Positions 1,933 through 22,544 of a stretch of DNA of 34,598 nt are shown one piece after another. The stretch comes from a virus: IMG/VR virus record IMGVR_UViG_3300025401_000067, positions 1-34,598 of that record; one strand, given 5' to 3'. A program made the position numbers and the translations under genes. Numbering within the stretch: the stretch's first letter is position 1; every line of letters begins with the position of its first letter. A model generated the notes under the pieces. It was not told the DNA's origin, ran no database searches, and was given only the letters and a program-made list of their open reading frames with translations.

Positions 1933-2520
1933 CTACTTTACGTCGTAATAACGCGCAATGTCTGCGGGAAACACGCCAGTGTCAGCGTGGTCTGGAATCA
2001 ATCCTACACAACGATGCGCGAGAGACGCAGCCGTAGAGCACACCATTCGTTGACCAGCACTTAACGCAATTTCAACGATAGGCACAAGAACGTTTACAAC
2101 CATGCCAAAGATTGAAAACCAACCGTATTCAATGCCTTCACACCACCACGCAAATTTTGCTGCTGCGCTACGCTGTTCTTCTGTTGCATTGATTGGGTGC
2201 ACAACTGCATACATGCGATCGACATAATCGAGAAGATCGACAACGACGCCGCCTTTCGCTTCCATCTGTGAAACTCGAGCGCGCGCGCCACCTTCAACGA
2301 CAATCATCGCATGATTCCATACGCAATATGCTGCATCATACCGTGGGTCTCGTTGAAACGTTCTACGTGCCCAATAACGAACGCGCTGTCCAGCACGAAT
2401 AAGCATTGGCATCTTCCCATCATGAATGACGAGAATTAGGTCACCGTGAACAGCGTCAACACAATGCTGCCCACTCTCAAAATACGTTACTTCTGCGTCA
2501 GGTGCAATTGGATATTTCAT
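1933..2520 (-). CDS. Permuted NlpC/P60-like (YiiX-type) cysteine hydrolase, likely lysis or cell-wall enzyme
   Basis: The 195-residue protein has the circularly permuted papain-like layout. A GDLILVI strand near residue 26 and a histidine in NHAMIVVEGG (His70) come first. The candidate nucleophile cysteine comes late, in MVCSTAASLAHR (Cys161). In this permuted order His precedes Cys, as in YiiX-type members of the NlpC/P60 superfamily. A hydrophobic stretch (about residues 136-153, FSIFGMVVNVLVPIVEIAL) lies just before the cysteine and may be buried or membrane-associated. The start ATG overlaps the stop of the holin-like gene (ATGA), implying coupled translation. With the DCSAF-type hydrolase at 2980-3534 it brackets the membrane protein, so a peptidoglycan-cleaving role is likely. 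Amidase versus peptidase activity cannot be decided. Confidence 0.6.
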   Translation of the reverse strand: MKYPIAPDAEVTYFESGQHCVDAVHGDLILVIHDGKMPMLIRAGQRVRYWARRTFQRDPRYDAAYCVWNHAMIVVEGGARARVSQMEAKGGVVVDLLDYVDRMYAVVHPINATEEQRSAAAKFAWWCEGIEYGWFSIFGMVVNVLVPIVEIALSAGQRMVCSTAASLAHRCVGLIPDHADTGVFPADIARYYDVK

Positions 2521-2942
2521 TCGCTTTGACCTTCATGAAAGCCCAAGTGATGTTCAACTTTTTCAACGACAGTGTCGACTTTTTCGGCGTAACGCTCCAT
2601 GAATGCTACGAGATTTTCAACTTTCTCTTCAGTGCGCGCTGCAATGTCACCTAAACGTTGCGTGTTTTTACCGTTAGGCGTAATGTCTTTACGAATTGAA
2701 TGCAATTCTTCATTACGAATTTTGTTAACGTCACCGCGCAATTCATTGATTGCTGAATGTAAGTCTTTAATGCTTTGACGCATCGCAGCATCTTCTTCGA
2801 TTTTTCGTTCTTTTTCAATTTTCTTTCGTTCATTCGCTGCGATTAGTTTTTGTACTAAGCGAACGCCTCCCCATACGAAACCAAGCGTGAAGCCGAGTGA
2901 CGATAAGAAGCCGACCCACGTGTTAAGAAAATTGAATAGCAG
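2517..2942 (-). CDS. Holin-like membrane protein with coiled coil (DUF2746-like), apparent CTG start
   Basis: The first ATG in this frame (2783) would give an 88-residue soluble fragment. The frame is open for another 53 codons back to a CTG at 2942, with no ATG, GTG or TTG, and the added sequence is clearly protein-like. It contains one transmembrane helix (about residues 8-32, with FVWGGVRLVQKLI), then a charged segment (ANERKKIEKERKIEEDA) that runs directly into the coiled coil. The full 141-residue protein has one membrane helix, a long coiled coil and a C-terminal HHLGFHEGQ. This is the organisation of DUF2746-like holin-associated proteins of actinobacteriophages. It sits between two cell-wall hydrolases and overlaps the downstream one by ATGA. 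The ribosome site at CTG is weak (AGG about 10 bases upstream), so the exact start is uncertain. Confidence 0.65.
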   Translation of the reverse strand: MLFNFLNTWVGFLSSLGFTLGFVWGGVRLVQKLIAANERKKIEKERKIEEDAAMRQSIKDLHSAINELRGDVNKIRNEELHSIRKDITPNGKNTQRLGDIAARTEEKVENLVAFMERYAEKVDTVVEKVEHHLGFHEGQSE

Positions 2943-2979
2943 AAAACTTTGACCTGATTACTCGTAGAGACGCAGACGA

Positions 2980-3534
2980 TTAAGCGGTCGGAGGCGTGTG
3001 AGGCGTGCGAACCGATGCAGTGACTGAGCGAAGGAACGTCTGAGGTTGACGACCATCGACTGCGTATCCGTGAGGGTTAGACTTCGGCGTGTTGACCCAT
3101 ACGTACGAAGGGTCGCCTTGTTCGCCCATGCTCACCGTGAGAATGTCATTATCATTGACTTCGACGATGAATGCAATGTGTTCGCCTGTGCCTGGGCCAT
3201 ATACGACATAGTCTCCAGGAATGACTTGCTCTACGTTAACGCCTGCGTGATTCTTCGCCCACAGTGCAATGTGCTCTTCATGCGAAAGAAACGTACCCGT
3301 GTAGCCTTCGTGGTCAAAGTTCAAACCGTTAGGGTCTGCAGCGCCGCCGAGCCACGCAATGAATGTGCAAAACGCTGAGCAGTCGCAATTGACGGGCCAC
3401 TTAATCGGCCACACACCAATTGCGCTCATACGATTGCTACCTTCAGAATAGTTAAAGTGATGTGCGCCCTTATTTGCAACGAACCACTTAGCCCATGCAA
3501 TTTGCGTTTCGCGAGTATCAATCGACATTTTCAT
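2980..3534 (-). CDS. Endolysin candidate, CHAP/NlpC-P60-type cysteine hydrolase
   Basis: This 184-residue protein has the nucleophile-type motif NCDCSAF (Cys52) followed by a histidine in TGEHIAFIVEV (His119). This is the Cys-then-His order of CHAP and NlpC/P60 peptidoglycan hydrolases. PGDYVVYGPG just before the histidine is the usual strand-turn preceding the catalytic His, and ILTVSMGEQG follows as in CHAP folds. There is no signal peptide or separate wall-binding domain; the last 20 residues are a short Thr/Pro tail. The ATG at 3534 has AAGGA six bases upstream. A holin-like gene follows 38 bases downstream, which supports a lysis role: cleaving host peptidoglycan after the membrane is opened. 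A tail-associated role is less likely given its position. Confidence 0.72.
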   Translation of the reverse strand: MKMSIDTRETQIAWAKWFVANKGAHHFNYSEGSNRMSAIGVWPIKWPVNCDCSAFCTFIAWLGGAADPNGLNFDHEGYTGTFLSHEEHIALWAKNHAGVNVEQVIPGDYVVYGPGTGEHIAFIVEVNDNDILTVSMGEQGDPSYVWVNTPKSNPHGYAVDGRQPQTFLRSVTASVRTPHTPPTA

Positions 3535-3536
3535 TC

Positions 3537-3575
3537 CTTACGTAAGTGTCGTGCTTATGTTTATTTTATCTTTTA
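3537..3575 (-). promoter_or_regulatory. AT-rich leader before the lysis cassette
   Basis: The 44 bases between the fibre gene stop and the endolysin start are much more AT-rich than the surroundings. On the minus strand they contain GATAAAATAAACATAAG, which offers -10-like hexamers, and a 10-base palindrome (CTTACGTAAG, 3538-3547) that overlaps the AAGGA ribosome site. There is no convincing -35. It could be a weak lysis-gene promoter or only an unstructured leader. Confidence 0.25.
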
Positions 3576-3578
3576 CGA

Positions 3579-4103
3579 TTAAGCGAGTCGTACAGCAGTG
3601 ATACCCGTGGTGGTACCGCTTGCATATCCGTACGTAGACGATGACGCAGCAATTGTGTATCCAGCGCCTCCTTGAGTGCTGAAGTACACCGTAGTCGTAG
3701 ACGCAAACGTTTGCACTGTCATAAGCGTCACTTCACGCGAAGTGTCAGTTGAGATGACTGACGTTGAACCGCTTGTGTACGCGCCAGTGCCGCTTGCGCT
3801 ATTAGGCCCAAGCCAAAGGTCAGCAGTCACAGAAGCTGCGCCGTATTTAACAATTGCTTGCGCGGTAATGAGCCATGTGCCTGCGACTAATGAAACACTT
3901 GTGATGTTTGACGCTGTCGTACTGCCGCTGCCTGCAGTTGAAATAAAGCTCGTGGCTTTTGTGCCTGTGATTGGCGTAGCCCATGCCGTCGCTCCACTGA
4001 CAGTTGTGAGCACTTGATTGTTCGTTGCCGAAGGCACAATTTGTGAAGGCTGATAAATGCCTTGATTCACCATTGCGAGAAGGTACGCGAGCTCTGAATC
4101 CAT
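3579..4103 (-). CDS. Fibre tip/receptor-binding-type structural protein (174 aa)
   Basis: The start overlaps the stop of the 808-residue fibre gene by one base (TAATG). The N-terminus (residues 1-20) is a short helix, MDSELAYLLAMVNQG. The next segment, QIVPSATNNQVLTTVSGATAW, is the linker often seen before a trimeric tip domain. Residues about 50-174 form a Thr/Ser/Gly-rich all-beta domain with VSLVAGTWLITAQAIVKYG, resembling jelly-roll (TNF/C1q-like) tip domains of tail fibres. No charged catalytic cluster is visible. I infer a fibre tip or small fibre; the fold is a guess from pattern. Confidence 0.65.
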   Translation of the reverse strand: MDSELAYLLAMVNQGIYQPSQIVPSATNNQVLTTVSGATAWATPITGTKATSFISTAGSGSTTASNITSVSLVAGTWLITAQAIVKYGAASVTADLWLGPNSASGTGAYTSGSTSVISTDTSREVTLMTVQTFASTTTVYFSTQGGAGYTIAASSSTYGYASGTTTGITAVRLA

Positions 4104-6529
4104 TACACAATCTCCATTGTTGAAGTTATCATAGGCGACGTAGCATTTTGTCCGCCTATTCCATCATAATTCACAGCCACCATCGCGTAAGAATCGAATA
4201 CGTCTGATGGGTCATCAGTGTACGCGCCAATCGTTGTCAAAAGATTCGTCGGATATTCGCGCCACATATACGTGTATTTGTCTGCAGTGTCGCTAAAGAT
4301 TGCAGTTGGATATTGCGTTTGCGTTGAATCGTAATACACTGGCACAAGCGCAGGATACGTGGTAACCGATGCAGTGCCAAAAGACGTCACCGTTCCCGGT
4401 GTCAATGCAGTGTCCACGAAAAAGACGTTTCCATACACTTGCGAAATTGTGTACGTTCCATTGTACGCAGTTGGGACAAAACCACTTAACGTAACTTGTT
4501 GACCAATGACGAATGGGCATGGACCTTGAGTTGTGATATTCCATGCAGCGTTTCCAGCGAAGTCAGTGCCAACCGTTAGCGCGCTAACGTTCACAGTGTC
4601 TGAACTATTCACAACCAATTCGCCTGAAGAAGTAGATGTTGCGTACGTGCCTTGCGTTGAGTACGTAACAAGCGAACCTGTGAACGCTTGAATGATGTAT
4701 TGCGGACCTACGACACCTACGTTTACGCCGTAATGCGTTGAAGCACTCTCATCAATTGCAATTGTGATTGATGTCGCAGAACTCCCAGGAAGCACAGGCA
4801 CATTCAACCATGTCACAGGATAGACGTTTACGCAAAAACCAAGACTCGAAAAAAGCGTTGCGCTTCCATCGATGTTTTCATTGATTGCGCTAAAAAGAAA
4901 CGGGCGAAAATAGAAGGAGCTTCGTCCCGCATAAACATTGCTGCTTAGCGTTGTTAGCGCAGTGCTGCCTCCGCATCCAAGCGGTGATAGCGCATACGCT
5001 CCATCAGTGCATATCATTGAGTTGTTAAACGCGCCAGCGCATGACACATAAAAGTTTGTAGGGCCTGACGTTGATGAAAGACTTGAAGGCGAACCGACGT
5101 TTACAAAGTATGAACCAATTTGTAAGTTTTGATTGACGTCAATCCACACTGGCGCTGCATAAACGTTTTCATCGTCTGCGCATACGTACAACGAGCCGTC
5201 GCTATAAAACGATCGGACGCCAGACACAGGAGCGTACGTATTAGGTTCTGATTGAGGCACTGACACAAAAAACTTAGCGCCTAATTGCGTAACAAGACCT
5301 ACATCGACTTCAGTTACGGTGTTGAGTCCGCCAGTTGTCGGGTCAATTTCACCCCACACATACGTAGTTGATGCGCTTTGCGCATTTGTTGTGCCGCCGA
5401 GCATAAAGAGATAATCAATTGCGCTAATTGTCACAACGCATAACGTTGGAAGCGCTGCGTACGCGTAGCCTGTGAATGGGAATGTGTAGTTGACGTTGTT
5501 AATTGAGATTTGTTGCGCTGCCCACGCACCGATTGTCCCAGTATTAACGTCAAATGACGCGCTGTAAAGCGTGCCACTTGGGCCGTATGCAAAAAGCGTT
5601 TGCGTTGAAAGCGCGTATGCGCATGAGCAGTCGTATTCAGGAAGGTCTTGACCTTGTATCCATTGACCTAAAGAACCGTTTCCACATTGAGCAGCGTACG
5701 TTGCATTGTTCAACCCAGAGTATGGCGCAACAGTGTTCGTAGCAAACACCCAACCGCCAGCGTTAATGTACGTAAAACTCGGTGGATTAGTGAGTGTGAC
5801 TGCAGTGCCAACGTTGTATTGAACTTGCGTGTTGTTGCCAAGCGGTGGAGCGTAATTAAAGCCAGTCACGTTAAAAGACGTCGCAGTGATTGACGAGTAT
5901 TGAAATTGCGTAGACGTTGGCACATTTTGCGCAGAGAACGATGTCAGTGTGATGTATCCGCTTGAAGGAAAGCCGGACGTACTTACTACGTTAATTGTCG
6001 CTGGAAACGCTAGTGTATATACGTTTAAGAAAGAAGAAAGCGCAGTACTCAGGCCTGGAAACGCGACATTTGCGTTTACTGTTGGGGTAATTGCGCTAAA
6101 CATAACGCTTTGCGCTTCTGGAAATGATGTTGACGTAAGTGACGCAATAAACTCATCTGGTACTTCGGTTACGCTTCCGCCAAAAGACACAGTTATTGGC
6201 GAAGGCATAGCAAATGAAGTGCCGCTGCTTGACGTCGGTGAAGGCAATGAAGTGTATGAAATTGGAATGCGAAATACTCCGCCATTTGCGTTGCTCAGTG
6301 GCGAGCCACCAGCGTACAAAGTTTGAGTGATTGACGTGATGCCAGTGGAAGACATTGGCACCCAACCGAGAAATTGCCCACCATTGTACGTTACGTTGCT
6401 TGTTTGAAGCGCAAAGTTTGTGCCACCGAACACTGATGTTGAAGGGTGCACCGTGAGGTACTCATTAACGTCGCCAGAACTTGCTGCGACACTCTGATTA
6501 ACTGAACGCCAAGTAGTGTTTAATGTCAT
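4103..6529 (-). CDS. Large tail fibre protein with Kelch-like propeller repeats (808 aa)
   Basis: This is the largest fibre gene of the region. Its ATG overlaps the stop of the upstream gene (ATGA). The sequence is almost uncharged and rich in Thr, Ser, Tyr, Val and Asn. Between roughly residues 255 and 530 there are repeated units of the Kelch type. Examples are GSLGQWIQGQDLPEY, SASFDVNTGTIGAWAAQ, DYLFMLGGTTNAQS and VWGEIDPTTGGL, that is, a glycine pair after a hydrophobic strand, then a tG.i.aW turn. This suggests a beta-propeller in the middle of the fibre. C-terminal to it are beta-sandwich-like stretches, including QVTLSGFVPTAYNGTYTISQV, a segment type common in phage fibres. The likely role is host recognition, with the propeller as a carbohydrate- or protein-binding platform. 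Confidence 0.7.
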   Translation of the reverse strand: MTLNTTWRSVNQSVAASSGDVNEYLTVHPSTSVFGGTNFALQTSNVTYNGGQFLGWVPMSSTGITSITQTLYAGGSPLSNANGGVFRIPISYTSLPSPTSSSGTSFAMPSPITVSFGGSVTEVPDEFIASLTSTSFPEAQSVMFSAITPTVNANVAFPGLSTALSSFLNVYTLAFPATINVVSTSGFPSSGYITLTSFSAQNVPTSTQFQYSSITATSFNVTGFNYAPPLGNNTQVQYNVGTAVTLTNPPSFTYINAGGWVFATNTVAPYSGLNNATYAAQCGNGSLGQWIQGQDLPEYDCSCAYALSTQTLFAYGPSGTLYSASFDVNTGTIGAWAAQQISINNVNYTFPFTGYAYAALPTLCVVTISAIDYLFMLGGTTNAQSASTTYVWGEIDPTTGGLNTVTEVDVGLVTQLGAKFFVSVPQSEPNTYAPVSGVRSFYSDGSLYVCADDENVYAAPVWIDVNQNLQIGSYFVNVGSPSSLSSTSGPTNFYVSCAGAFNNSMICTDGAYALSPLGCGGSTALTTLSSNVYAGRSSFYFRPFLFSAINENIDGSATLFSSLGFCVNVYPVTWLNVPVLPGSSATSITIAIDESASTHYGVNVGVVGPQYIIQAFTGSLVTYSTQGTYATSTSSGELVVNSSDTVNVSALTVGTDFAGNAAWNITTQGPCPFVIGQQVTLSGFVPTAYNGTYTISQVYGNVFFVDTALTPGTVTSFGTASVTTYPALVPVYYDSTQTQYPTAIFSDTADKYTYMWREYPTNLLTTIGAYTDDPSDVFDSYAMVAVNYDGIGGQNATSPMITSTMEIV

Positions 6530-10218: not shown

Positions 10219-13103
10219 TAGTGAAGAACGACGCCTGCTTGCGGAAGAATGCGTGTATTGAGTTGCTTACCGAGTGCAGTTGCTAAGTCATTAAGAGAAC
10301 CGTACACTGCGCCACTCACTGTCACATTTACGACAACTGTTTGCCCACTTCCAGTGCCACCAACAAGTGAACGACTCATTGCGCTCGCTGCGTTCAATTT
10401 GACGCCCATTGCTTGCGCTTGTTGCGCAGTGAGAACTGTCTCACCTGCTTGAAGTACTGCGGGGACTTCTTTTCCAGGATTGCCTGGGACAACTCCACCC
10501 GTGTGAAAGCCAAGAAAACTAGCAACGTGGCCGAGCACATTGCTTGCGCCTGACACGAGCCCACCAATGATTGGAATCTTTTTAATGACGTGCAAAACTG
10601 CGCTACCAACTTTACCTGCGGCGCCCATAATACCGTTAGCAATAAACTCAACTAACTTTTCGCCTGCGTTAAGCAAGTCCGACCCGAGTGATTCAATTGC
10701 ACCAAGAATTTCGCTGCCGAGATTTAAGAAGAAGTCGATGATTTTCTTAGCGAAACCGAGTACATCGTCAACAGCCTTTTTAACAATAGGCCCAATCGCT
10801 GACCAAATTTCTTGCCAATGCTTCCAAAGAAGCATGACACCGGCAATGATGAGAGCGATAGGCGCAAGAAGAATGAGCAGCACGACTTTAAGCACATCAA
10901 TTGCGATTTTTACGACAGCGACAATTGCGTGCCATATCGTCTTAAACACTGCAACTACGCCATTCCACAAACCGATGAAGAACTTTGCGACACTTTTAAC
11001 GATTGGCTTCATGAAATTCCACACCGTGTTCCAGTGCTTGTACAATTCGTACACTGCAACGACAACGAGCGCAATTGCAGCGATGACTGCGAGAATCGGC
11101 CACGTCACTGCCCATACGCCTGCGGCTAAGCCATCTTCTGCGGCAGCGGCTGTGAAAGTCGCCGTCGCCCATTCGCCTAACGTAGTAATTTGCCCAGCAA
11201 TAAGTGTGCCAAACGACTTTAATGGGCCAGTGACAATCTTAAACGCGTCCCACGCGCTTTTTGCAACGCCAATAACTTTGTGCAAGCCCCAAAGCACCGT
11301 GATAACGCCTGCGATAGAGCCTACAACAGCAAGAAGAATGCCAGCCAATTTTTTATGCGACTCAATAAACTGAGCAATCGGCTTAATGCCTTTGACAAGC
11401 GCGCTCATAAACTTTTCTACGAATGGGAGAAGAGCGTTTCCAATTGCGATGCCAAGCGCTTTAACAGTGTTGTGCAACTTCTTCATGTTTGCTTGCATCG
11501 TATTTTCAGCGCGCTCTGCGGCTTTTTGCATCGCAGTCTGGTCTTCAATCGCTTTTGTCGCTTTTTCGTATCCGTCTTTGCCTGCGAGAATCATCGGCAA
11601 AAGTTTACGACCAACTGACGCACCGAACAACTGATTAACAATCGCGAGTTGTTGCTGCTGGTCTTTCATCTTGCTAAGTTTCGGACCGAGTTGCTCAATA
11701 ATTGCGCCCATGCCAATGAACTTGTCATGTGCGTTAAAGACGCTGATGCCTAAGTCTGAAAGTTCAATTTGAGCAGGCGTAAGTTTTAACGCATTAATTG
11801 TCCCATTCGACGTCTTTGCTTGTTGCGCCAAAGATTCGAATTGCTTCATGTAGCCTGAGACGATGCCGCCTTGTATTGAACCGCCTTGCTGAAGTTTCTT
11901 CATGTCTGCTGTGTACTGCGCAAGTGTAATGCGACCATTAGCCAATTCACGTGAAACGCCTTGAACTGACGCAGGCATTTTCGAAATGGCGTTATTCAAC
12001 TCTGTAATTGTTGGTGTACCAACTTTTCCAGTCTTCAACAACGTGTTCATTGACGTGCTCAACACCATTGTCGCTTGACGCCCAGCGAGACCGTGCTCAG
12101 ACATGTCAAGGAGCAATGAAGAAGTTTCGCCGATGCTTGGCGCCATGACACCAAGTTGCGATTTCATGCGACTAATTTGATTCGTAAGTTGAGGCAAGTT
12201 TTGCCCTGTCAAACGTGCAGCATTATATAAGTCGCTTTCAGCGGCTGCGGCTTGGCCAACAGTCATGCCATACTGTTGCATCATTTTTGCGAGACCAGAC
12301 GTTACGCTCGACAACGGTTGGCCTGACGCAGCAGCGCCATCAATTGCAACACGCATAAAGTCTGTCGCTTGTTTTGTCGAAAGCGCATGACCTTGAAGTG
12401 TGCTTAACTGACCTGCAACCTTGCCATACGAATCAGCCATCTCCGTCGCAGAAAATGAACTCTGCGTAGACATTGACAGAAATTGGTCGCCAATTTTTTG
12501 CGCAGCAGCAGATGAAATGTTTGCGCCATTCGCAATTTTTACGACTGACTCATTGTACTCTGCTGCGGATTTGATTGATGCGTAACCGATGCCAATCATT
12601 GCTGCAGTGACTATCCCAGCCTTTGGCCCAATCTTGTCTAAGCCTTTGCCTGCTTTTTCGCCAAAAGATGCTGCGCCTACGCCTGCGCTTTTTTCTTGCG
12701 CAGCCATGTTTAACTTTGTAGCGTCTTCAACACGACGTTGCGCAGCAGCCTGCTTATCTAATGCAATTGTGACATCTTCTAGCGCTGCGCGTTGCGCAAG
12801 TGCACCGCCAGTGACGCCATCAGTGATGAGTTGATTTGCATCGCGAACGCGAAGCATCGCTGCTTGAAGATTATCCTCTGCGTGTTGCAACTCATCAATG
12901 CGCGCTTGAAGAAGTCCGCCAGTAAGTTCAGGGTCGCTAAGCGCGCCAGACATTCTCGCGCCGGCGTCATTTGCAATGCCACCAAGTTCTTGAAACTTTC
13001 TTTGAACTTTTTCGAGTGCGCCATTCGCGCGCTCAAATGCGCCAAAGATATTCTCTCTGACTTCGAGTCCGAGAAGAAGTGTGAGGTCGCTCTTCAGTCC
13101 CAT
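10218..13103 (-). CDS. Tape measure protein (961 aa)
   Basis: This protein determines tail length and is carried inside the tail tube. It is the longest tail gene and lies between the assembly chaperones and the hub. Residues 1-150 are helical (ENIFGAFERANGALEKVQRKF). Residues about 165-500 match the phage minor tail (TP901/PhageMin_Tail) type, with SSFSATEMADSYGKVAG, VAIDGAAASGQPLSSVTSGL and FGASVGRKLLPMIL. Hydrophobic segments lie at about 586-607, 667-687 and 738-760, each followed by Trp-rich repeats (KHWNTVWNFM, KHWQEIWSAI). The C-terminal motif FHTGGVVPGNPGKEVPAVLQ with ETVLTAQQA is a standard end for siphovirus tape measures. The length suggests a tail of roughly 140 nm by the usual 0.15 nm per residue rule. 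The start overlaps the preceding stop (TAATG). Confidence 0.92.
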   Translation of the reverse strand: MGLKSDLTLLLGLEVRENIFGAFERANGALEKVQRKFQELGGIANDAGARMSGALSDPELTGGLLQARIDELQHAEDNLQAAMLRVRDANQLITDGVTGGALAQRAALEDVTIALDKQAAAQRRVEDATKLNMAAQEKSAGVGAASFGEKAGKGLDKIGPKAGIVTAAMIGIGYASIKSAAEYNESVVKIANGANISSAAAQKIGDQFLSMSTQSSFSATEMADSYGKVAGQLSTLQGHALSTKQATDFMRVAIDGAAASGQPLSSVTSGLAKMMQQYGMTVGQAAAAESDLYNAARLTGQNLPQLTNQISRMKSQLGVMAPSIGETSSLLLDMSEHGLAGRQATMVLSTSMNTLLKTGKVGTPTITELNNAISKMPASVQGVSRELANGRITLAQYTADMKKLQQGGSIQGGIVSGYMKQFESLAQQAKTSNGTINALKLTPAQIELSDLGISVFNAHDKFIGMGAIIEQLGPKLSKMKDQQQQLAIVNQLFGASVGRKLLPMILAGKDGYEKATKAIEDQTAMQKAAERAENTMQANMKKLHNTVKALGIAIGNALLPFVEKFMSALVKGIKPIAQFIESHKKLAGILLAVVGSIAGVITVLWGLHKVIGVAKSAWDAFKIVTGPLKSFGTLIAGQITTLGEWATATFTAAAAEDGLAAGVWAVTWPILAVIAAIALVVVAVYELYKHWNTVWNFMKPIVKSVAKFFIGLWNGVVAVFKTIWHAIVAVVKIAIDVLKVVLLILLAPIALIIAGVMLLWKHWQEIWSAIGPIVKKAVDDVLGFAKKIIDFFLNLGSEILGAIESLGSDLLNAGEKLVEFIANGIMGAAGKVGSAVLHVIKKIPIIGGLVSGASNVLGHVASFLGFHTGGVVPGNPGKEVPAVLQAGETVLTAQQAQAMGVKLNAASAMSRSLVGGTGSGQTVVVNVTVSGAVYGSLNDLATALGKQLNTRILPQAGVVLH

Positions 13104-13411
13104 TAGTACTTTTGCCTACCTCTACTCGACTCTACTTCGTTCTTTTTCTGTTGCCTTTGCTCTTCCGCCGCAATCATATTAATGATTGTGATGTAGTCCG
13201 AAACTTCGTTTAACGGACGCGTCTTAAGTGTCTCAAAGTTTAAGCCGACGTGCTTATAGAGAGCGCTTTCAATCAGAAACTTCTGAAGACTCGGAAACTC
13301 CGTCGAGACCGGCTGACCCGTTATCGCCGCTCTCACTGCCGACAGGAAACCGAATCTCTTCTTCTCGCTTTCTAGGAGTCGCTGCATCGTTAATCTTTTC
13401 GTAGATTGCAA
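13103..13411 (-). CDS. Tail assembly chaperone, second frame (made by frameshift)
   Basis: This frame overlaps the 3' end of the first chaperone gene by about 140 bases and ends at the tape-measure start (TAATG). The nominal start at 13411 is a TTG inside the first gene with no good ribosome site. The frame continues open upstream of it, so it is best read as the C-terminal part of a frameshift product (the T part of a G-T pair). It is helical and charged, with FPSLQKFLIESALYK and DYITIINMIAAEEQRQQKK. Relative to the first gene the frame is offset by +1 (equivalently -2). Full fusion length would be about 205 residues. The product should chaperone tape-measure packing and tube assembly and be absent from finished virions. 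Confidence 0.75.
   Translation of the reverse strand: MQSTKRLTMQRLLESEKKRFGFLSAVRAAITGQPVSTEFPSLQKFLIESALYKHVGLNFETLKTRPLNEVSDYITIINMIAAEEQRQQKKNEVESSRGRQKY
13269..13411 (-). other. Overlap window for programmed +1 (or -2) frameshift
   Basis: Both frames are open across this stretch and the downstream frame is displaced by +1 (equivalently -2), not the -1 of lambda G-T. I see no X-XXY-YYZ heptamer. Candidate +1 sites are the CCT AGA codon pair near the start of the overlap and the GAT before the TGA stop at its end. Neither is proven. Confidence 0.5.
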
Positions 13412-13721
13412 CGAACGCCGACTGAGGAAGTCGACGAATTGAAGTGTGCTTTTCGGTAGCGGGAGTCAATGGAAGAAGTTGACCGTCTTCGTCAGTTAAG
13501 TTCCAATCAACAATTGCGCGGAAGACGAGTTCGTGCTGGTACGCAACAGTGTCAGGCTCAGCGGAGAGATTCCCGCCTTGCATTGACATCTTGCCAAGAA
13601 GTGCGCGTTGCGCTGCTTCATAGTCTGCTGCGTTCAATGACGATTTAACGTCAATCCAATAACCGTCTGCGACAATGATGCGCTCGGGCTCGTTGAATAG
13701 TGATAAAAAACCTGACATCAT
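13269..13721 (-). CDS. Tail assembly chaperone, first frame (150 aa)
   Basis: The ATG at 13721 has AAGGAAGA just upstream. The gene lies between the tail tube and tape-measure genes, the invariant place of lambda G-like chaperones. The protein has a globular part (residues about 1-110, including YWIDVKSSLNAADYEAAQRAL and LTPATEKHTSIRRLP) and a low-complexity Ser/Glu/Asp/Gly tail from about 115 (SESGDNGSAGLDG, SESSEVSD). The tail overlaps the second frame. It would bind the tape measure and recruit tail tube subunits. No homologue can be named from sequence alone, but the arrangement is diagnostic. Confidence 0.8.
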   Translation of the reverse strand: MMSGFLSLFNEPERIIVADGYWIDVKSSLNAADYEAAQRALLGKMSMQGGNLSAEPDTVAYQHELVFRAIVDWNLTDEDGQLLPLTPATEKHTSIRRLPQSAFVAIYEKINDAATPRKREEEIRFPVGSESGDNGSAGLDGVSESSEVSD

Positions 13722-13751
13722 TCTTCCTTATGTCTATTAGTCGGTTGCGTC

Positions 13752-15224
13752 CTAGTAAGGGAGCCAGACCGCGTTTGTGACTGTTGAAGTCATCACGGTA
13801 GCAGGCGAAATTGAGAGATCGTATGACGCTTCAAAGTCGAGCGTTGACATTACGACGTCTTCAAGTTTGATCGAATCAGCGTACTTAGCGATGTTGATTT
13901 GCGGCAACGTAATTGAGATCGCTGAACCAGTCGAGTGCGCAAGCGTAAGCACGAGACTTCCTTGCACTTGCTCTTGCATCTTTGCATAGTAGCCCCAGTC
14001 TGGGTCGTCCAAGCTGTCGAATACGACTTCAATTTGGCCCGTGATTTTACGAGTCACTGGGGTCAGAAACTGAAGGTCGTGTGAGCCGTTAAACGTATAC
14101 GTAGGCTTGAGACCGTTTTCAATGTCAAAACTTACGTTCGTTACTTGCGCCACGACTGAGTCACCGAAGAGACCGAGCGTCGCTTCGGCAAACACGAAAG
14201 GAGACTCGTTAGTCACGGAGATAGGCGATGAAGGAGTGTCGAGAATGTTCACTGCCTTTGAAACGACAGACACGCCCATTGACGCTGCTTCCTCTCCTGC
14301 GGCGAGCTTAAGGCTGAACTTACCAACGCGTGAGCCAGTGAATTGAAGAGATTGCGTACCGCCAATGTTCTTTTCAATTGTCATTGAAGGAAGTGCATTA
14401 CCGGGGAGAATCGTGTGAACGAATTGATTTGCGACGTTTGAAAGCGTGAAAAGACTCGTTGAATTGTTCGTAAGCGTTGCGGCGTTTGACAACGTGATTG
14501 ACGTGTTTGCTACGAACGATACGACAGTCGTGCCCGCAGGAATGCCGTTACCGACGACACTCATGCCGTTGACAACGCCGGTCGTGCTAGTCGTGGCGAG
14601 CGTTGTGCTGCTGACAGACGTAGAGCCTGAGACAGAAATAGTGGTGCCCGTGACTGCAGGAAAAAACTTCAAAGACGCAGAAGATGCGTGAGCAAAGTTG
14701 AGCGGCTGGTCGAACGTAACAACAGAGCCGGCCAATGTCGCAATCTTACGAACTTCAGACGTTGTAGGAGTCGTGGTGTTGTTTACGTCTACTTGAATAA
14801 AACCACCCTGGACGAACCCAGTCGCGGACGTAAGAGTGACTGAGGTGGCTCCAGCAGTGATTGAAGTAGTAGGCGTAGTAGTTGCAGTTGCAGTTCCGAC
14901 TGGCACTACACCGTAACCTGAGAGAGAAGGCGAAGACTGTCCGCCATCGTAACCAACGGAAGCAACGAAAAGCTCGGTGCCATTTGTTGGGAAGAACGGC
15001 GCGGAGATGTCACCCGTGTTCTTGCGCTCACCGTACAACGCAAAAACGTTTACGTCACGAATGCCCATCACAACTTGTGGGAAGAAGAGACCTGGGTCGG
15101 ACTCGAGCGTTACGTCAGTGAACGGGATAAAAGTCGTAGGCGCAACTGCAGTGCCAAACGTTGCTTCTTTCGCAATGCCTACGGCTGAAAGTGAACCGTA
15201 CTTTTCTGTGACTGTGGTAGCCAG
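13752..15224 (-). CDS. Major tail tube protein with Ig-like insertion; CTG start
   Basis: The protein forms the tail tube. The first conventional start (GTG, 15071) lacks a ribosome site and would cut off 51 residues of obvious tail-tube sequence. The upstream codons read ATTVTEKYGSLSAVGIAKE, then EATFGTAVAPTTFIPF, the usual opening of siphovirus tube proteins (EtxyGTaxaPtxfxP). That frame begins at CTG (15224), six bases after AGGAG and followed by an alanine codon. The 490-residue protein is longer than usual because of a beta insertion at about residues 120-260. It contains MSVVGNGIPAGTTVVSF and SITLSNAATLTNNST, a domain found inserted in several virion proteins. The C-terminal half (FSLKLAAGEEAASMG, GQIEVVFDSLDDP) returns to the tube fold. 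It lies between the tail completion genes and the chaperones. Confidence 0.82.
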   Translation of the reverse strand: MATTVTEKYGSLSAVGIAKEATFGTAVAPTTFIPFTDVTLESDPGLFFPQVVMGIRDVNVFALYGERKNTGDISAPFFPTNGTELFVASVGYDGGQSSPSLSGYGVVPVGTATATTTPTTSITAGATSVTLTSATGFVQGGFIQVDVNNTTTPTTSEVRKIATLAGSVVTFDQPLNFAHASSASLKFFPAVTGTTISVSGSTSVSSTTLATTSTTGVVNGMSVVGNGIPAGTTVVSFVANTSITLSNAATLTNNSTSLFTLSNVANQFVHTILPGNALPSMTIEKNIGGTQSLQFTGSRVGKFSLKLAAGEEAASMGVSVVSKAVNILDTPSSPISVTNESPFVFAEATLGLFGDSVVAQVTNVSFDIENGLKPTYTFNGSHDLQFLTPVTRKITGQIEVVFDSLDDPDWGYYAKMQEQVQGSLVLTLAHSTGSAISITLPQINIAKYADSIKLEDVVMSTLDFEASYDLSISPATVMTSTVTNAVWLPY

Positions 15225-15227
15225 AAA

Positions 15228-15235
15228 CCTCTCCT
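15228..15235 (-). promoter_or_regulatory. Strong ribosome binding site defining the tail tube CTG start
   Basis: On the minus strand this reads AGGAGAGG, an excellent Shine-Dalgarno sequence, ending 3 bases before CTG at 15224 (6 bases counted from AGGAG). The nearest in-frame ATG/GTG is more than 150 bases downstream and has no comparable site, so this sequence decides the start. Confidence 0.7.
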
Positions 15236-15238
15236 GAG

Positions 15239-15511: not shown

Positions 15512-15525
15512 GTCTAAATACTAAC

Positions 15526-15990: not shown

Positions 15991-16469
15991 TACGGTTGCG
16001 CAATTTCTTTCAACGTGAATTCGAGTAGCGCTTCATAAAGAAACAGACGTTGGTCTGAAAGCGCGTGCACAGGAGATTGTTGAATAGTGAACTGCTCACC
16101 GACTGAAATAAATTGCGTAGTGCGTTGCGTCACTGCGTCAGTTATAGTGACAGGCATTGGCGTCGTAACCCACGCTTCAACAACAGCGTCAATCAAACAC
16201 GCAAATGCTGAATCAGCGTTAGGGTTCGTTGCACTGCTCGGGCTCATTAACCAAACGCTAACAGTCCACACGCTTTGACGAAAACCTGCACCACGAGGTG
16301 CAGTCTGTCGAGCGTTTGTGCCTTGCGTCACCCAGATGTATGCAGCAGGCCCAGGCAATTTACCTGGGTTAGGAGGCGTAATGTACGCAACAATTGGACG
16401 ATTGTTGAGAGGCGCAGTGATGCCATCAGTGAGCGTCTTTGCGTATGTTTGAACTGCGTTTACGCCCAT
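15990..16469 (-). CDS. Tail terminator-like protein (159 aa)
   Basis: The start shares a base with the stop of the connector gene (TAATG) and the stop with the next start. The protein has a VQTYAKTLTDGI helix, AYIWVTQGTNARQTAPRG, a strand with SVWTVSVWLMSP, a helix (AFACLIDAVVEAWV), and a C-terminal strand ending LLEFTLKEIA. This is the alpha/beta order of siphovirus tail terminator proteins that cap the tube and dock on the connector. It lies between the adaptor and the gp10-like gene as in many siphoviruses. The identification is by gene order and secondary structure pattern. Confidence 0.65.
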   Translation of the reverse strand: MGVNAVQTYAKTLTDGITAPLNNRPIVAYITPPNPGKLPGPAAYIWVTQGTNARQTAPRGAGFRQSVWTVSVWLMSPSSATNPNADSAFACLIDAVVEAWVTTPMPVTITDAVTQRTTQFISVGEQFTIQQSPVHALSDQRLFLYEALLEFTLKEIAQP

Positions 16470-17383
16470 TAGATGACTCGACGATAAGGCTTCAAAATGT
16501 CTTTAATGTCAGTCATCATCTGCGCAGTTTGCCCGCCCATGTTTGACGTACTACCGGGCATCGTTTGAACAGTTGTCGCGGTTGAACCACGCGCAAGTGC
16601 TTGCATCGTAGCGTGCATGATCGCTGCTTCTTGCACTGACTCAGGTAATGACGAGATGATGATGGGTTGTTGCACACTTGCGCTGTGTGAATACGTTAGT
16701 GGAGAGTTTAACGTTACAACTCCAGCGCCTGACGACACGCTCGTGCTTTTTACGTGAACGTACTCAGTGTTCGAACCGTCATATATCCACATTCCACGAC
16801 CTGAACCTGATGAGTTCACCATGCCTGTGCAGTCATCGACGTTAAGCGTAGTGTCGCCAATGTTTGCGTTCGCAGTGATGCCTGCGTGCGCCCAACCGTT
16901 CACGTATGTAAGTTGAAGACGTAGACCGTTGCGCCCACTCTGCCATGAAACGTACCCAGGCGTGATGCGAATTGCAGATGGACCAGCAGCAGATTCGATT
17001 GACACGCCGCTCGAGATGTTCAATGCGTTTTCAATGTACAAATATTCTGTGTTGATTGTCTGCCAATTTGCAGGCGCAACAGTCGATGATGCGTATTGCG
17101 CACCAACAATGTCAGTGACTGGCCAACGTGACGTAAGAACGCGCACGAGCCCTTGCCAGTCGACAGTCATTCGATAGTCTGGCCCAATAAACTCTTCAGT
17201 GTCTACAGTTGAACGCAAAGGTTGATTGCAATACGAGTCAATCCAGTGCGTTGCTCGCCAACACATGTTTGTTTGTTCAGCGAGTTGCGCGTCAGGGTCT
17301 GAGCCAAAGTCAGGAATCGTTTCCCATGAAATGCCCGTTGGCGCATTGATGAGAATGCTAGGTGTTATGTATGGCGTCGCCAC
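16469..17383 (-). CDS. Head-tail connector (adaptor) protein with inserted beta domain (304 aa)
   Basis: The N-terminal helices (residues about 20-55, with LAEQTNMCWRATHWIDSYCN) and the following strands (EEFIGPDYRMTVDWQG) fit the head-completion adaptor that binds the portal. PVTDIVGAQYASSTVAPANW and LQLTYVNGWAH follow the pattern of this family (xPVxxVxxvxxs, then vxYxaGw). A beta insertion at about residues 168-240 (NIGDTTLNVDDCTGM, VVTLNSPLTYSHSASV) separates the core from a C-terminal helix (ESVQEAAIMHATMQALARG), making it longer than the typical 100-200 residue adaptor. It is the first large gene after the capsid block, the expected position. The last residues, IKDILKPYRRVI, match the conserved 'll.py.r' ending. 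Confidence 0.75.
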   Translation of the reverse strand: MATPYITPSILINAPTGISWETIPDFGSDPDAQLAEQTNMCWRATHWIDSYCNQPLRSTVDTEEFIGPDYRMTVDWQGLVRVLTSRWPVTDIVGAQYASSTVAPANWQTINTEYLYIENALNISSGVSIESAAGPSAIRITPGYVSWQSGRNGLRLQLTYVNGWAHAGITANANIGDTTLNVDDCTGMVNSSGSGRGMWIYDGSNTEYVHVKSTSVSSGAGVVTLNSPLTYSHSASVQQPIIISSLPESVQEAAIMHATMQALARGSTATTVQTMPGSTSNMGGQTAQMMTDIKDILKPYRRVI

Positions 17384-17385
17384 AT

Positions 17386-18156: not shown

Positions 18157-18203
18157 CTATTCATCTCCACTAGTTAGCGTGTTAGTTCTATTCTATACTT
18201 GCG

Positions 18204-18237
18204 CAAAAGAAAAAGCAGCGACGTAAGTCGCTGCTTT
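18204..18237 (-). terminator. Rho-independent terminator after the capsid block
   Basis: Positions 18212-18222 and 18227-18237 form a perfect 11-base-pair stem (AAAGCAGCGAC on the plus strand) with a 4-base loop. Read on the minus strand, the stem is followed by TTTCTTTT (18211-18205). It lies 17 bases after the stop of the small capsid-associated gene, so it ends or attenuates the head transcript before the connector genes. Confidence 0.85.
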
Positions 18238-18254
18238 CTCTAGTTTGAAGCGTG

Positions 18255-18539: not shown

Positions 18540-18552
18540 GATGTTCTCCTAG

Positions 18553-18596
18553 AAATGAAGATGAGTCGGGACAGAGACCGTAATCTCTGCCCCGAC
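18553..18596 (-). terminator. Intercistronic stem-loop after the major capsid gene (attenuator or processing site)
   Basis: On the minus strand, bases 18596-18584 and 18577-18565 pair over 13 positions (twelve Watson-Crick and one G-U) around a 6-base loop, beginning 19 bases after the capsid stop. The following sequence (TCATCTTCATTT) is only moderately U-rich. It is therefore more likely a partial terminator, RNA stabiliser or processing hairpin than a full stop. The next gene has its own strong ribosome site. Confidence 0.6.
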
Positions 18597-18615
18597 CCAT
18601 TTTCGTTGAGGGATA

Positions 18616-20418
18616 CTACGAGTTGGTACCGGTGGTGCCAGCGACCGACTGCTGAAGACCCTGAATCACGCCGTTGTACTGCGGAGCGTAGTTGACGAGC
18701 GCACCGTACATGTAAATGCTGTAGCGGAACGAAGCGTCAATGACAGGCCAGTTGATCGACAGGTAGTCCTGGACCATGACGTTCTCCCAGACGTTGGAGA
18801 CGTTGCTCCACGACATGGGCAGGGTGTACGAGTTCAAGAACGCGGTGCCCTGGGTCAGGTAGGGGTGAACAACGCAGCGGAGGATGCTACGAGTGATGGG
18901 GTTCTGAATCTCAGAAACCGCAGCACCGGTGCGCACGCCACCGACCTCGTCCTGCGAGAGGAAGAGACGGTAGTTGGTGTTAGCACCTGAAGCAATTACC
19001 TCGTCAGCGAGACGAGCGATGTCCGAGCCTTCTGCAACCAATTCAGCAGGGTCAGCGCGGAAGCCGCCAGTCGTCGACGAGTTGTTGTTGCCGGTGGTCG
19101 AGCCATTCCACATCGCCTCGAGCGCAGTGAAGAGGACTCCGTGCGTAAGAGTTGAGTTGACAGACTTGTTGATGTACGAACCAGTGAAACCGGTTGGGTA
19201 CACTGAAGCGTCAGTGGAAGCGTGACCGTCCAAGATTGACAGCCAGCCTTCGTAGTCCGTGGAAGACGAAGTGCCGGAGTCGGTTCCTGAAGGGTTGGTG
19301 CCCGATGATGGGATAGTGCCCTGCAACGTGAAGGTAGTAGCACCGACGTTCGAAGCCATGAGCCAGTAACTCGTAAGTGCACCAGGCGCTGAAGCAGCGT
19401 TGGCGACGTAGATGTTGTACTGGTATGCACCGCGAACTGGGGCAATCTTGACGTCCACAACCTTGTTCGCTGCAAGCGCGACGTTAGCGACAAGGCTCGT
19501 GCTACCAGCGGTCTCACCGAAGTAGTTCTTAGCCGTGACGAGTACGTAAAGGTTATTGGTCGTGGCAGACAGTGCAGTCTCAACCGAGTTAGGCGTACGA
19601 GCAGTAAGCGTAGGCGCAGCGGGCTGAGCAAGCGCAGACGAAGTACCCGAGAGCATCGTGTACTCTTCACCAAGCATGAACTCCTGAAGGAGAACGAGGT
19701 TAGCAAGAGCAGAGATGTCTTCGAAGCCTTGACCTGCGAACTGAGCGAGCCACGAGAGCGATTCCGACATTCCGAAGAACGAGTAAGGAATGTTCATGTC
19801 GACTGCGGACTGCGCGCCTGCGCCTGGGATGTTCAACGGCCAGTTGCCGCCGATGGTCTGACCCGAAGGAATTTCCGAGATGGAAATACGCTTGTTGGCA
19901 AGACCAGTCTGCGAACCGCTAATTGCGGTGACCAACTTGGCACGGTGTGAAGTACCCTGACCAGCAACGCGTGGGACCTTGTTACGCAGAGGCGAGTACA
20001 CCGGGTAGATGAGTCGCGAAGGCGCAACCAAGTCGAAAGGCACGAAGCCGCTCGAGAGAGGCGATGAAAGGGTGATGTTCTTACCCAATTCAGCGGAGAG
20101 CACACTCTGAAGTTCGCCAACCAACTGGCCATAGCCAGGGTTATTGCCTTCAGTCATGAACAAGCCGAATTGCGATGAGAACGCGGGGTTGATGCTCTTG
20201 CGAACGCTGTCGGGCGAAGCGATCGAGTTCTTGACGGAGGTGCGAAGAGCACGCTCAGCCTCGTACGAACGCTTGAAGATTTCGCTGTCGTCAGTCAGAG
20301 GCTGATTGCCGCCGACCTTAGCGAAGCCTGCACCCTTGACCAACGCAGGCATGCGCCCCGTAATCATGTCCGAAGCGCCGGAGTAACGTCCAGCGTCGGT
20401 GGTGTCAATCTGTGCGAT
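18616..20418 (-). CDS. Major capsid protein (HK97-like) with a beta insertion; apparent ATC start
   Basis: This protein builds the icosahedral shell. Gene order (protease/scaffold before it, head-tail genes after) and sequence support it: an N-terminal arm, AELGKNITLSSPLSSG, APSRLIYPVYSPLRNKVPRV, and a C-terminal LPMSWSNVSNVWENVMVQDYLSINWPV region. Residues about 265-385 are an inserted Fn3-like or Ig-like domain (NSVETALSATTNNLYVLVTA, YQYNIYVANAASA). The first ATG (20367) has no ribosome site. The frame runs on upstream as AQIDTTDAGRYSGASD to an ATC at 20418, four bases after a perfect AAGGAG and followed by an alanine codon. That gives 600 residues. Codon use is more GC-rich than in the tail genes, with many preferred codons (AAC, ACC, GGC), as expected for the most expressed gene. 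Confidence 0.82.
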   Translation of the reverse strand: MAQIDTTDAGRYSGASDMITGRMPALVKGAGFAKVGGNQPLTDDSEIFKRSYEAERALRTSVKNSIASPDSVRKSINPAFSSQFGLFMTEGNNPGYGQLVGELQSVLSAELGKNITLSSPLSSGFVPFDLVAPSRLIYPVYSPLRNKVPRVAGQGTSHRAKLVTAISGSQTGLANKRISISEIPSGQTIGGNWPLNIPGAGAQSAVDMNIPYSFFGMSESLSWLAQFAGQGFEDISALANLVLLQEFMLGEEYTMLSGTSSALAQPAAPTLTARTPNSVETALSATTNNLYVLVTAKNYFGETAGSTSLVANVALAANKVVDVKIAPVRGAYQYNIYVANAASAPGALTSYWLMASNVGATTFTLQGTIPSSGTNPSGTDSGTSSSTDYEGWLSILDGHASTDASVYPTGFTGSYINKSVNSTLTHGVLFTALEAMWNGSTTGNNNSSTTGGFRADPAELVAEGSDIARLADEVIASGANTNYRLFLSQDEVGGVRTGAAVSEIQNPITRSILRCVVHPYLTQGTAFLNSYTLPMSWSNVSNVWENVMVQDYLSINWPVIDASFRYSIYMYGALVNYAPQYNGVIQGLQQSVAGTTGTNS

Positions 20419-20422
20419 AAAA

Positions 20423-20428
20423 CTCCTT
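20423..20428 (-). promoter_or_regulatory. Perfect ribosome binding site before the capsid gene
   Basis: AAGGAG on the minus strand, 4 bases before the ATC codon at 20418. No ATG, GTG or TTG lies in frame within the next 50 bases, which points to the ATC as the initiation codon. Confidence 0.65.
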
Positions 20429-20444
20429 AAAGTTTTAGTGGTAG

Positions 20445-22535
20445 TTAGTTTTGCTCGAAGGCCACGCGCTCGCGCAAACGTGATAGTTGCTGCTCAGCGC
20501 GCATACGCAGTTCAGGGTTACCTGACTTCGTGAGCACCTCAAGGTACGCAACTTCTTCCTTCAAACTGTCCTCGGCAGCCTTGCGAAGCAAGTCTGCTTC
20601 AGTGGCTGACTTTTCGATTGCACGCTCGAGCACCACCGTACCCCTTACCGGGGCCTTGGCGGGGTCGGGCTCGCTACCGAGCTTTTCAACCTCCGATTGT
20701 ACGACACCGAGAACATCATCGAGGGCTTCAAACTTCGCCTTCGTGTGCAACTCAACGAGCGACTTAACGATGTCGTTGAGGGTGTCAGTGTCGATCAAAA
20801 CCTGCCCGTCGCTGTCAGTAGTGACAGGGATCGTTTGGCCGGTGTGTTCTTCAACGAAGAGAGGCTCTTGCGCTTCAAAGTCTTGCGACTTTTGCAGAAG
20901 CTTTTGCGCCTTCTTAATCTTCTTCGCTTGCTTAAGAATCTTCTTCTCAGCCTTCGTCAATGAAGGCGTTGCGCTTGCGGCAATTGGCTTGATGCTTCCA
21001 TCAGTGAGAAGTGAGCTTACGCCAGCGTACGAAGTGCCAGCACCTGCGTCAAGTGCGCAAATGCGTGGGTATGCTGATGAGATGTGGTCGTGAAGTGCGG
21101 CAAGTGCGTTCATCGCAGCATCTGCAGTTGCCTCAGCGATTCGATCAGCGGCAGTTGCATTCGTAGGAGTGTGACTGCCGGTGTTCTCAGGAGATGGGTT
21201 CTCACGACCATCAGTGAGAGGACCGCGCGTGAAGTCATCGCCATCGATAGTGCTGTTGCCTACGTCTGGAATGCGAGGATTAGCGCCAGTCGAACTCAGT
21301 GGGGCACGACCTGCGCTTACGAATGCGCGTTGGAATTGTCCAGGCGTGATGCTACCTGGCGTGACGTGAGCAGTCGGATACGCGTCAGTGAATGACTTGT
21401 GCAATGCGTCGTGAGCATCGCGAATTTGCGTGTCACTCATCGTTGAAAGCGTTTGAGCGGCGCCAACAGCAGCGGCCAAAGACGCTAACTTCATTGGGTC
21501 TTCACTCTCAGCGAGAGATGAAAGAAGAGTGCGAATTACTTCAGGCTCGAGCACAGACTTGTAGCCGCTAGTGACAACTGATGGGTGAGCAGACTTGACG
21601 ATGTCGTGCGAGTACGCATCGCATACTGCGTCGTGCGCGCGACGAAGACCGTAAGCAACGCCATCAATTGACTTGCTCATTGAGTCATCGTCGTCGTCGT
21701 CATCATCGTCATCATCGTCATCATCATTGTCAGCCATGTGCTTAGCGTTGTCTTTGGCTTGCGAATCCTTCGCATCCTCGATAGCGTCATCGGCTTCACT
21801 AAGACTTTCGGTGACGTCAGCGTCATCCTTTGGAAGCTTCTTCTTTTCGACTTCAGCCTCAGCAGCCTTGCCCATGCACTTTTCGCAACCTGCGCCCTTG
21901 CACATGTCGCAGACGCCATCGACGCCCTTTTCTACTTCGTTCATCTCACTCACAGGTGTTTGTTCCTTCTCGTCTGATTGACGCTTGATGATTGAGCCGA
22001 TAGGCGTCAATGTCTTTTCAATTTTGTTGATTTCTGTCTTTGAACGCTTGACGATCTCAAACTTTGCCGTGGGCAGAGCGGGGAAGTCTACGATTGAGAC
22101 TTCTGAGAAGATGCCGTCGGTCACACGTCCTTGTTTAGCAACTTTGTCACGAATGATTCGTGGCTTAGAGATGCCAACGCTAAATGCAGAGTACACGCCT
22201 TCTTTAACGAGCTTTACTGCGCCAGGTTCAACAATCCGCGCAGTGAGGTACACACCTTCAGGACGCGTAGTGTCGACGCTAATTGCTTTACCTGCGGGAG
22301 GAAGATTCGTTGAGTGCATCTGACGGACGTTACCGAAAGACTGCGCCCAAGTTGCGAGACCCTTACGCGAAAAGTCAAGGTCGATGATTTGGTCATCGAG
22401 GTCAACCATGTCGCTTGTGCAAAGACCCGAGACAATGACGCTACCGTCAGCCTGCTCTTCAGCCTTAGTGATTGGGACGCCAAATGCTGTGTCTCCACCA
22501 AGTTCTACAACCGCTTCATCTAGAATGCGAGCCAG
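20445..22535 (-). CDS. Prohead protease fused to scaffold (XkdF-like), apparent CTG start
   Basis: With the CTG start the product is 696 residues. Residues 1-170 are a prohead protease domain: GVPITKAEEQADGSVIVSG, VDLDDQIIDL, QMHSTN (His74), YSAFSVGIS (Ser119) and FSEVSIVDFPALP. The GVPITK strand is part of the fold but lies upstream of the first ATG (22409), so the conventional start is too short. Between the TAA at 22550-22548 and 22409 there is no ATG, GTG or TTG in frame; a CTG at 22535 sits five bases after GGAG and precedes an alanine codon. Then come a DnaJ-like zinc motif (CDMCKGAGCEKCMG, about 209-222), an acidic segment with 14 consecutive Asp (271-284), and a helical Lys/Glu-rich scaffold to the end. 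It should guide capsid assembly, cut the scaffold and itself be removed. Confidence 0.8.
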   Translation of the reverse strand: MARILDEAVVELGGDTAFGVPITKAEEQADGSVIVSGLCTSDMVDLDDQIIDLDFSRKGLATWAQSFGNVRQMHSTNLPPAGKAISVDTTRPEGVYLTARIVEPGAVKLVKEGVYSAFSVGISKPRIIRDKVAKQGRVTDGIFSEVSIVDFPALPTAKFEIVKRSKTEINKIEKTLTPIGSIIKRQSDEKEQTPVSEMNEVEKGVDGVCDMCKGAGCEKCMGKAAEAEVEKKKLPKDDADVTESLSEADDAIEDAKDSQAKDNAKHMADNDDDDDDDDDDDDDDSMSKSIDGVAYGLRRAHDAVCDAYSHDIVKSAHPSVVTSGYKSVLEPEVIRTLLSSLAESEDPMKLASLAAAVGAAQTLSTMSDTQIRDAHDALHKSFTDAYPTAHVTPGSITPGQFQRAFVSAGRAPLSSTGANPRIPDVGNSTIDGDDFTRGPLTDGRENPSPENTGSHTPTNATAADRIAEATADAAMNALAALHDHISSAYPRICALDAGAGTSYAGVSSLLTDGSIKPIAASATPSLTKAEKKILKQAKKIKKAQKLLQKSQDFEAQEPLFVEEHTGQTIPVTTDSDGQVLIDTDTLNDIVKSLVELHTKAKFEALDDVLGVVQSEVEKLGSEPDPAKAPVRGTVVLERAIEKSATEADLLRKAAEDSLKEEVAYLEVLTKSGNPELRMRAEQQLSRLRERVAFEQN
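21684..21725 (-). repeat. Run of 14 aspartate codons
   Basis: Fourteen consecutive GAT/GAC codons form a trinucleotide-like tract inside the scaffold region. The mixed codons (GAT GAT GAC pattern repeated) suggest growth by slippage followed by drift. It encodes a strongly acidic flexible spacer. Confidence 0.9.
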
Positions 22536-22540
22536 AATAT

Positions 22541-22544
22541 CTCC
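22541..22544 (-). promoter_or_regulatory. Ribosome binding site before the protease CTG
   Basis: GGAG on the minus strand, in the context ACGGAGAT, 5 bases before the CTG at 22535 and 2 bases before an ATT at 22538. It follows the in-frame stop TAA closely, so initiation must occur here or far downstream without a site. Confidence 0.55.

Follow-up and report, generated by a model that had tools for sequence, protein, structure and literature searches.

Control of non-standard start codons by translation initiation factor 3 (IF3) is established in Streptomyces, where this factor restrains sigR (GTC start) and infC (ATC start) (PMC5472188). In Staphylococcus aureus, cvfC1 (AUU) and ccpN (AUA) carry an extended Shine-Dalgarno sequence and reach a reporter output of about 10–30% of that obtained with AUG (PMC13009471). 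A passage on chloroplasts, citing earlier work, attributes a preference for U at position -1 to extended codon–anticodon pairing (PMC4587860), and a passage of the description of phage phiB124-14 includes an annotated CTG start for a single predicted open reading frame (ORF), ORF10 (PMC3338817). Here we present a computational analysis of near-cognate starts, i.e. codons one base away from AUG other than GUG and UUG, in the 34.6 kb virus record IMGVR_UViG_3300025401_000067 of IMG/VR (the whole stretch of 34,598 nucleotides is called the window below). Judging from comparison with relatives, translation of its putative tail tube, major capsid, capsid maturation protease and holin-like genes almost certainly starts at the near-cognate codons CUG or AUC themselves. 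On the same comparison, the window belongs to one phage lineage whose late, mostly virion, genes use strong and close Shine-Dalgarno sites followed by UUU and then CUG, AUC, AUA or AUU.

The four start sites were read in the window sequence as ..CAGGAGAGGTTT-CTG-GCT for the tail tube gene (CTG at 15224), ..TTTAAGGAGTTTT-ATC-GCA for the capsid gene (ATC at 20418), ..CGGAGATATT-CTG-GCT for the protease gene (CTG at 22535) and ..GTCAAAGTTTT-CTG-CTA for the holin-like gene (CTG at 2942). All four codons belong to the near-cognate class, as do the CTG, ATC, ATA and ATT codons of the relatives. The first-pass annotation of this DNA had singled out these frames and each of them is present: the nearest upstream in-frame stop lies 21, 78, 15 and 18 nt before the tail tube, capsid, protease and holin-like codons, respectively, and no ATG, GTG or TTG occurs between that stop and the proposed codon in any of the 4 frames. 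The first such codon downstream is found 51 codons into the tube gene, 17 into the capsid gene and 42 into the protease gene, and at position 2783, 53 codons downstream, in the holin-like gene. The same annotation correctly gave GCT, GCT and GCA as the second codons of the tube, protease and capsid genes and described the holin-like site as weak; its Shine-Dalgarno sequence in the window is indeed weak, with TTTT kept.

The capsid, protease and tube proteins served as queries for IMG/VR scans, which gave relatives from several metagenomes; whole records were fetched for six of them. The near-cognate codon is kept at the same position in relatives from other metagenomes at 41–90% protein identity. 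In the capsid column, ATC in the window faces CTG in six close relatives (78–90% identity); elsewhere this column holds TTG (L013), ATG (L014) or CTG (L046), and the distant phages L016 and L018 show ATA at the place of a GTG in L020 and L023. In the protease column, the window shares CTG with seven relatives (L004, L007, L009, L010/L011, L012, L013, L014); L003 has TTG there and distant phages have GTG. CTG also occupies the tube column of the window and four relatives (L004, L009, L010/L011, L196); L026 and its near copies carry TTG, L203 carries ATA, L206 ATC, and other distant ones GTG or ATG. All three phages found with the holin-like gene have CTG (the window, L041 and L028), the two relatives reading GGAG-CTTT-CTG and GAGG-TTTT-CTG, respectively, at 41–43% identity. 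The portal column holds TTG in the window and three relatives and CTG after AGGAG-TTT in L034, and that of a 304-aa gene holds GTG in most phages and ATC after AGG-TTT in L034/L011. The start columns contain only AUG or its first- or third-position one-base variants, a second-position change never being seen. Every close relative that was aligned, and several distant ones, have a near-cognate codon or NTG in the start column. Since only AUG, NUG and AUN occur in them, and since the near-cognate codons are swapped with TTG, GTG and ATG, these columns behave as start codons and not as leucine or isoleucine codons.

Aligning homologues to see whether they carry ATG at the same codon had been proposed by the first-pass annotation. 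Most close relatives keep the near-cognate codon and some relatives have ATG, GTG or TTG, e.g. ATG at the capsid position of L014. That relatives keep the pattern argues for selection and against error. The suggestion of regulatory tuning or a selected sequence change thus holds as to the direction of selection, the pattern being conserved across the lineage, but not as a recent event, because CTG columns are common to phages that are only 49–75% identical in the same protein.

The extensions opened by the near-cognate codons had been called protein-like, and their divergence bears this out. Between the window and its nearest relative, the tube, capsid and protease extensions together carry 16, 6 and 60 substitutions at codon positions 1, 2 and 3 (p ~8e-14), a bias indicating that they evolve as translated sequence. 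Residues predicted within the extensions include ATTVTEKYGSLSAVGIAK, and the N-terminal peptide of the protease is predicted to begin ILDEAVVELGGDTAFGVPITK or ARILDEAV. A codon-blind survey retained sites that combine a Shine-Dalgarno match of at least 5 with a coding extension upstream and that lack a usable conventional start. Of the 29 sites that it flagged in the window and relatives, 16 are CTG, ATA or ATC; on inspection, three further flagged codons turned out to lie one codon away from a CTG, a CTG and an ATA site. The same survey of 516 ORFs of unrelated viral contigs flagged 11 sites spread over ten codons, with CTG represented once. These control contigs had been fetched for containing AGGAGGTTTCTGGC, so that any bias would favour CTG in the control.

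The most informative features of these sites are the run of UUU and a short Shine-Dalgarno spacing that hardly varies, both of which the first-pass annotation had missed. TTT occupies positions -3 to -1 at 29 of 33 near-cognate sites, against 1 of the 118 ATG starts provided with a Shine-Dalgarno sequence in the same phages, and T stands at -1 in 32 of 33 against 19 of 118. The triplet precedes none of 22 GTG starts and 3 of 13 TTG starts of these phages. Counted once per gene family, it is found in 8/9 cases against 1/118 ATG starts (p ~6e-11). The spacing of the core Shine-Dalgarno sequence is nearly constant at ~3 for near-cognate codons, whereas it is broad, from 1 to 9, for ATG; most of the 33 sites combine a match of 4–7 nt with a core spacing of 2–5. 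The ATG starts of these phages lie in an A-rich context. Among distant tube relatives, TTT is absent where the start is GTG or ATG and present where it is ATA or ATC, so that context and codon go together.

The reverse scan started from the context. In six close-clade genomes, GGAG or GAGG followed by N(0-2)-TTT, then by an open frame with an upstream stop nearby, led to CTG in 19, ATC in 2, ATA in 2 and ATT in 1 of 31 cases, and to ATG, GTG or TTG in 0; a few sites are counted twice in these figures, with overlapping records and Shine-Dalgarno registers. Unrelated viral contigs gave 56 cases over 32 codons with no near-cognate excess, and nothing comparable appeared in 400 kb taken from three actinobacterial genomes. 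A general phage motif was considered and rejected: an exact IMG/VR scan for AGGAGGTTTCTGGC returned 118 stretches, with 17 occurrences in the gene-start frame against 13 and 10 in the others, which is no clear excess.

Some further genes of the relatives are of note. In G008, a gene matching tail and endolysin families (L035:14690-16093) has an ATA start after GAGGAGG-TTT; at 18216, a gene of 376 aa has a possible ATT start after AGGAG-ATTT. A 1498-aa gene of G002 (L029:3996-8489) has a CTG start after AGGAG-TTT and a leader resembling that of the portal gene (CTGAATAGGAG...). The tail tube relative in L210 has a strong GAAGGAGG near 4680-4745; where the start is expected, it shows neither a usual start nor an unambiguous near-cognate codon, the candidates being CTT or ACG.

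We put at roughly three in four the probability that the whole pattern reflects real near-cognate starts on a stereotyped site, assisted by extended pairing and sensitive to IF3. Most sites have a close and strong Shine-Dalgarno sequence, which would keep the 30S subunit in place, and the anticodon of the initiator tRNA would pair with codon positions 2 and 3 of CUG or 1 and 2 of AUC, AUA and AUU. Two further pairs would join U(-1) and U(-2) to A37 and A38 in this tRNA, bringing the number of pairs formed to 4 of 5, which would explain why U is found instead of the A-rich context of ATG starts. An extended codon–anticodon interaction between U(-1) and A37 of initiator tRNA was reportedly described for chloroplast genes by Esposito in 2003. 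For the phage sites, we give the extended-pairing step somewhat less than even odds. Formyl-methionine would be the first residue of the protein. As IF3 selects against such codons, output would be sub-maximal and set by the ratio of IF3 to ribosomes, a dependence that could fix stoichiometry or delay expression to late infection. We think that these genes are sensitive to IF3 and that UUU rescues them in part, a step for which we see the chances as evenly balanced. A bolder version seems rather unlikely to us: GGAG-N-UUU-(CUG/AUC/AUA/AUU) would form a dedicated initiation class in which UUU licenses near-cognate codons, and a late change in fidelity, through IF3 depletion or a phage factor, would act on late structural genes and bring about an early-late translational switch that depends on which start codon a gene has.

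Several points weigh against near-cognate initiation assisted by UUU. The evidence for the starts is computational, and the 33 near-cognate sites are related by descent, forming about 9 gene families in a close clade. U(-3) is conserved yet has no partner in the extended-pairing model, and the U tract of the capsid gene is also part of a potential hairpin. In leadered start-codon selection of mycobacteria, CTG is essentially unused, at 0.03% (PMC4633059); if the host is similar, a CUG capsid start becomes more surprising and its strong expression needs explaining. In the actinobacterial infC leaders that we read, starts are all non-ATG, with ATC in nearly all, and lie after GGAG at short spacing; the ATC is preceded by CCC, GCC, GAA and other triplets, without UUU. 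Since infC starts at ATC in this way, UUU is not a general requirement, and we rejected it as a general actinobacterial rule for near-cognate codons. Two of these infC genes have apparent GTC (L252) and ATT (L265) starts instead of the usual ATC.

The alternative that survives best, although we consider it unlikely, is a phage or host RNA-binding factor that would read GGAG-N-UUU-start and switch late genes, the near-cognate codon creating the dependence. A stereotyped site common to late genes would suit such a factor, as would the capsid leader, where the Shine-Dalgarno sequence sits in the loop of a potential hairpin whose arms change but still match in relatives (AGAAAC/GTTTCT, AGAAC/GTTCT; L003, L006, L009, L010, L014). 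After shuffling of the upstream part, the stem was matched or exceeded in 0.9% of trials for the window, 0.15% for G006, 3.7% for G008 and 2.6% for L014, and in 18–79% for three other relatives; RNAalifold returned no pair on the gapped capsid alignment. The capsid hairpin is a lead rather than a result. The other genes do not share it, and we rejected it as an explanation of their UUU. An 8-bp version in L048 takes in its ATG. No candidate factor was found in a check that covered IF3, tRNAs and the top Pfam families only: IF3 is absent from 19 records, many of them fragments, no tRNA-Met or tRNA-Leu was found beside tRNA-Asp (G008) and tRNA-Cys (L020), and no translation factor occurs among the best 25 Pfam families listed for the early genes of each of two relatives.

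Less probable still is a host with relaxed initiation and general use of CTG, which the phage would simply follow. The first-pass annotation had raised an unusual host initiation system, and the data do not support it: most genes of these phages start with ATG, GTG or TTG, near-cognate codons occur chiefly in late genes and together with UUU, the 400 kb from three actinobacterial genomes yielded zero flagged near-cognate sites, and neither IF3 nor the relevant tRNAs appeared in the phage records. In its favour, where a cellular source is named or can be inferred for a relative, it mostly points to Actinobacteria, and no close host genome was found in which start usage could be compared. The phage family is uncultured and its host probably actinobacterial. 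A major capsid protein (MCP) profile search of GTDB contigs returned distant relatives only, and among three cellular contigs with a relative, two are actinobacterial (Arthrobacter, Actinomycetes) and one is filed as Armatimonadetes. No close match emerged from an MCP search of 395 genomes of the Arthrobacter class. The relative G002 encodes WhiB, and WhiB proteins are known from Actinobacteria and from phages of Actinobacteria.

Initiation at the downstream ATG or GTG codons, leaving the extensions untranslated, is very improbable. Such codons do exist, and the capsid ATG located 17–20 codons down is conserved in the close clade. We rejected them because they lack Shine-Dalgarno sequences, shift in position among relatives (19–72 codons down in the protease gene, 26–52 in the tube gene) and lie behind extensions under coding selection; moreover, distant relatives have GTG or ATG starts at or beside the near-cognate column. 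Finally, near-cognate starts are rare and the window is a single uncultured contig, but a sequencing or assembly error hiding a true ATG has a negligible chance, since homologous columns agree across phages, where errors would not fall, and the same codons recur in separate metagenomes (capsid ATC in the identical contig 3300006104_000114 of metagenome 3300006104, protease CTG in contig 3300006125_000052).

Table 1. Genes and initiation elements of the window considered in this work
Feature	Position	Strand	Remarks
Putative tail tube (major tail) gene	13752..15224	-	CTG start at 15224, 490 aa; immediately precedes the tape measure region
Tail tube initiation element	15225..15236	-	AGGAGAGG-TTT directly before CTG
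Putative major capsid gene	18616..20418	-	ATC start at 20418, 600 aa
Capsid initiation element	20419..20436	-	AAAACT-TTAAGG-AGTTTT: 6-bp inverted repeat, Shine-Dalgarno in loop, TTT before start
Putative capsid maturation protease gene	20445..22535	-	CTG start at 22535, 696 aa
Protease initiation element	22536..22544	-	GGAG-ATATT before CTG; relatives GGAG-ATTT or GGAGG-ATTT
'Holin-like' 141-aa protein	2517..2942	-	CTG start at 2942; hydrophobic N-terminus, charged helix-prone remainder
Portal gene	26175..30014	-	TTG start in the window
304-aa gene downstream of capsid gene	16469..17383	-	GTG start in the window

The names capsid, tail tube and holin are putative and derive from synteny and weak profile matches. 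The protease gene has PHROG matches to head maturation protease and major head protein, and residues 256-484 of the tail tube protein match PHROG 290, 'minor tail protein'. Structure models of the capsid and tube proteins (mean pLDDT 36 and 33) are too poor for testing these names, and a PDB sequence search gave no capsid or tail match. Just before the tape measure gene, two ORFs overlap (13103-13411 and 13269-13721). The second has a TTG start only, a situation known from tail assembly chaperones that programmed frameshifting produces; a slippery heptamer is not obvious within 13240-13340. Between the portal and protease genes, 22886-24385 encodes an ADP-ribosyltransferase domain (PF03496, 1e-20), which is also present in the relative G002.

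Near-cognate initiation in a fixed context would be an unusual means of controlling the synthesis of abundant proteins. Gene finders limited to ATG, GTG and TTG would truncate the capsid, protease and tail proteins of these phages, and a lineage with CUG and AUN virion starts behind UUU would offer a natural and testable model of context rescue.

Set beside the known systems, these phage starts show both likeness and difference. For ORF10 of phiB124-14, the passage describing it reports no conserved column or context (PMC3338817), in contrast to the columns of the present lineage. The S. aureus genes cvfC1 and ccpN share conserved non-standard starts and a close Shine-Dalgarno sequence with the phage genes; they use a longer Shine-Dalgarno pairing, to which the phage UUU adds nothing, and their genes and codons differ. 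The infC (AUU/AUC/AUA) and sigR (GTC) genes resemble the phage genes in placing a conserved start other than ATG, GTG or TTG behind a strong Shine-Dalgarno sequence. However, these are regulatory genes of limited output, whereas the phage genes encode virion structural proteins, start mainly at CTG and carry UUU before it. The chloroplast preference for U(-1) concerns other genes; in the phages, U extends over -3 to -1 and is specific to near-cognate codons. That preference fits 32 of the 33 phage near-cognate sites.

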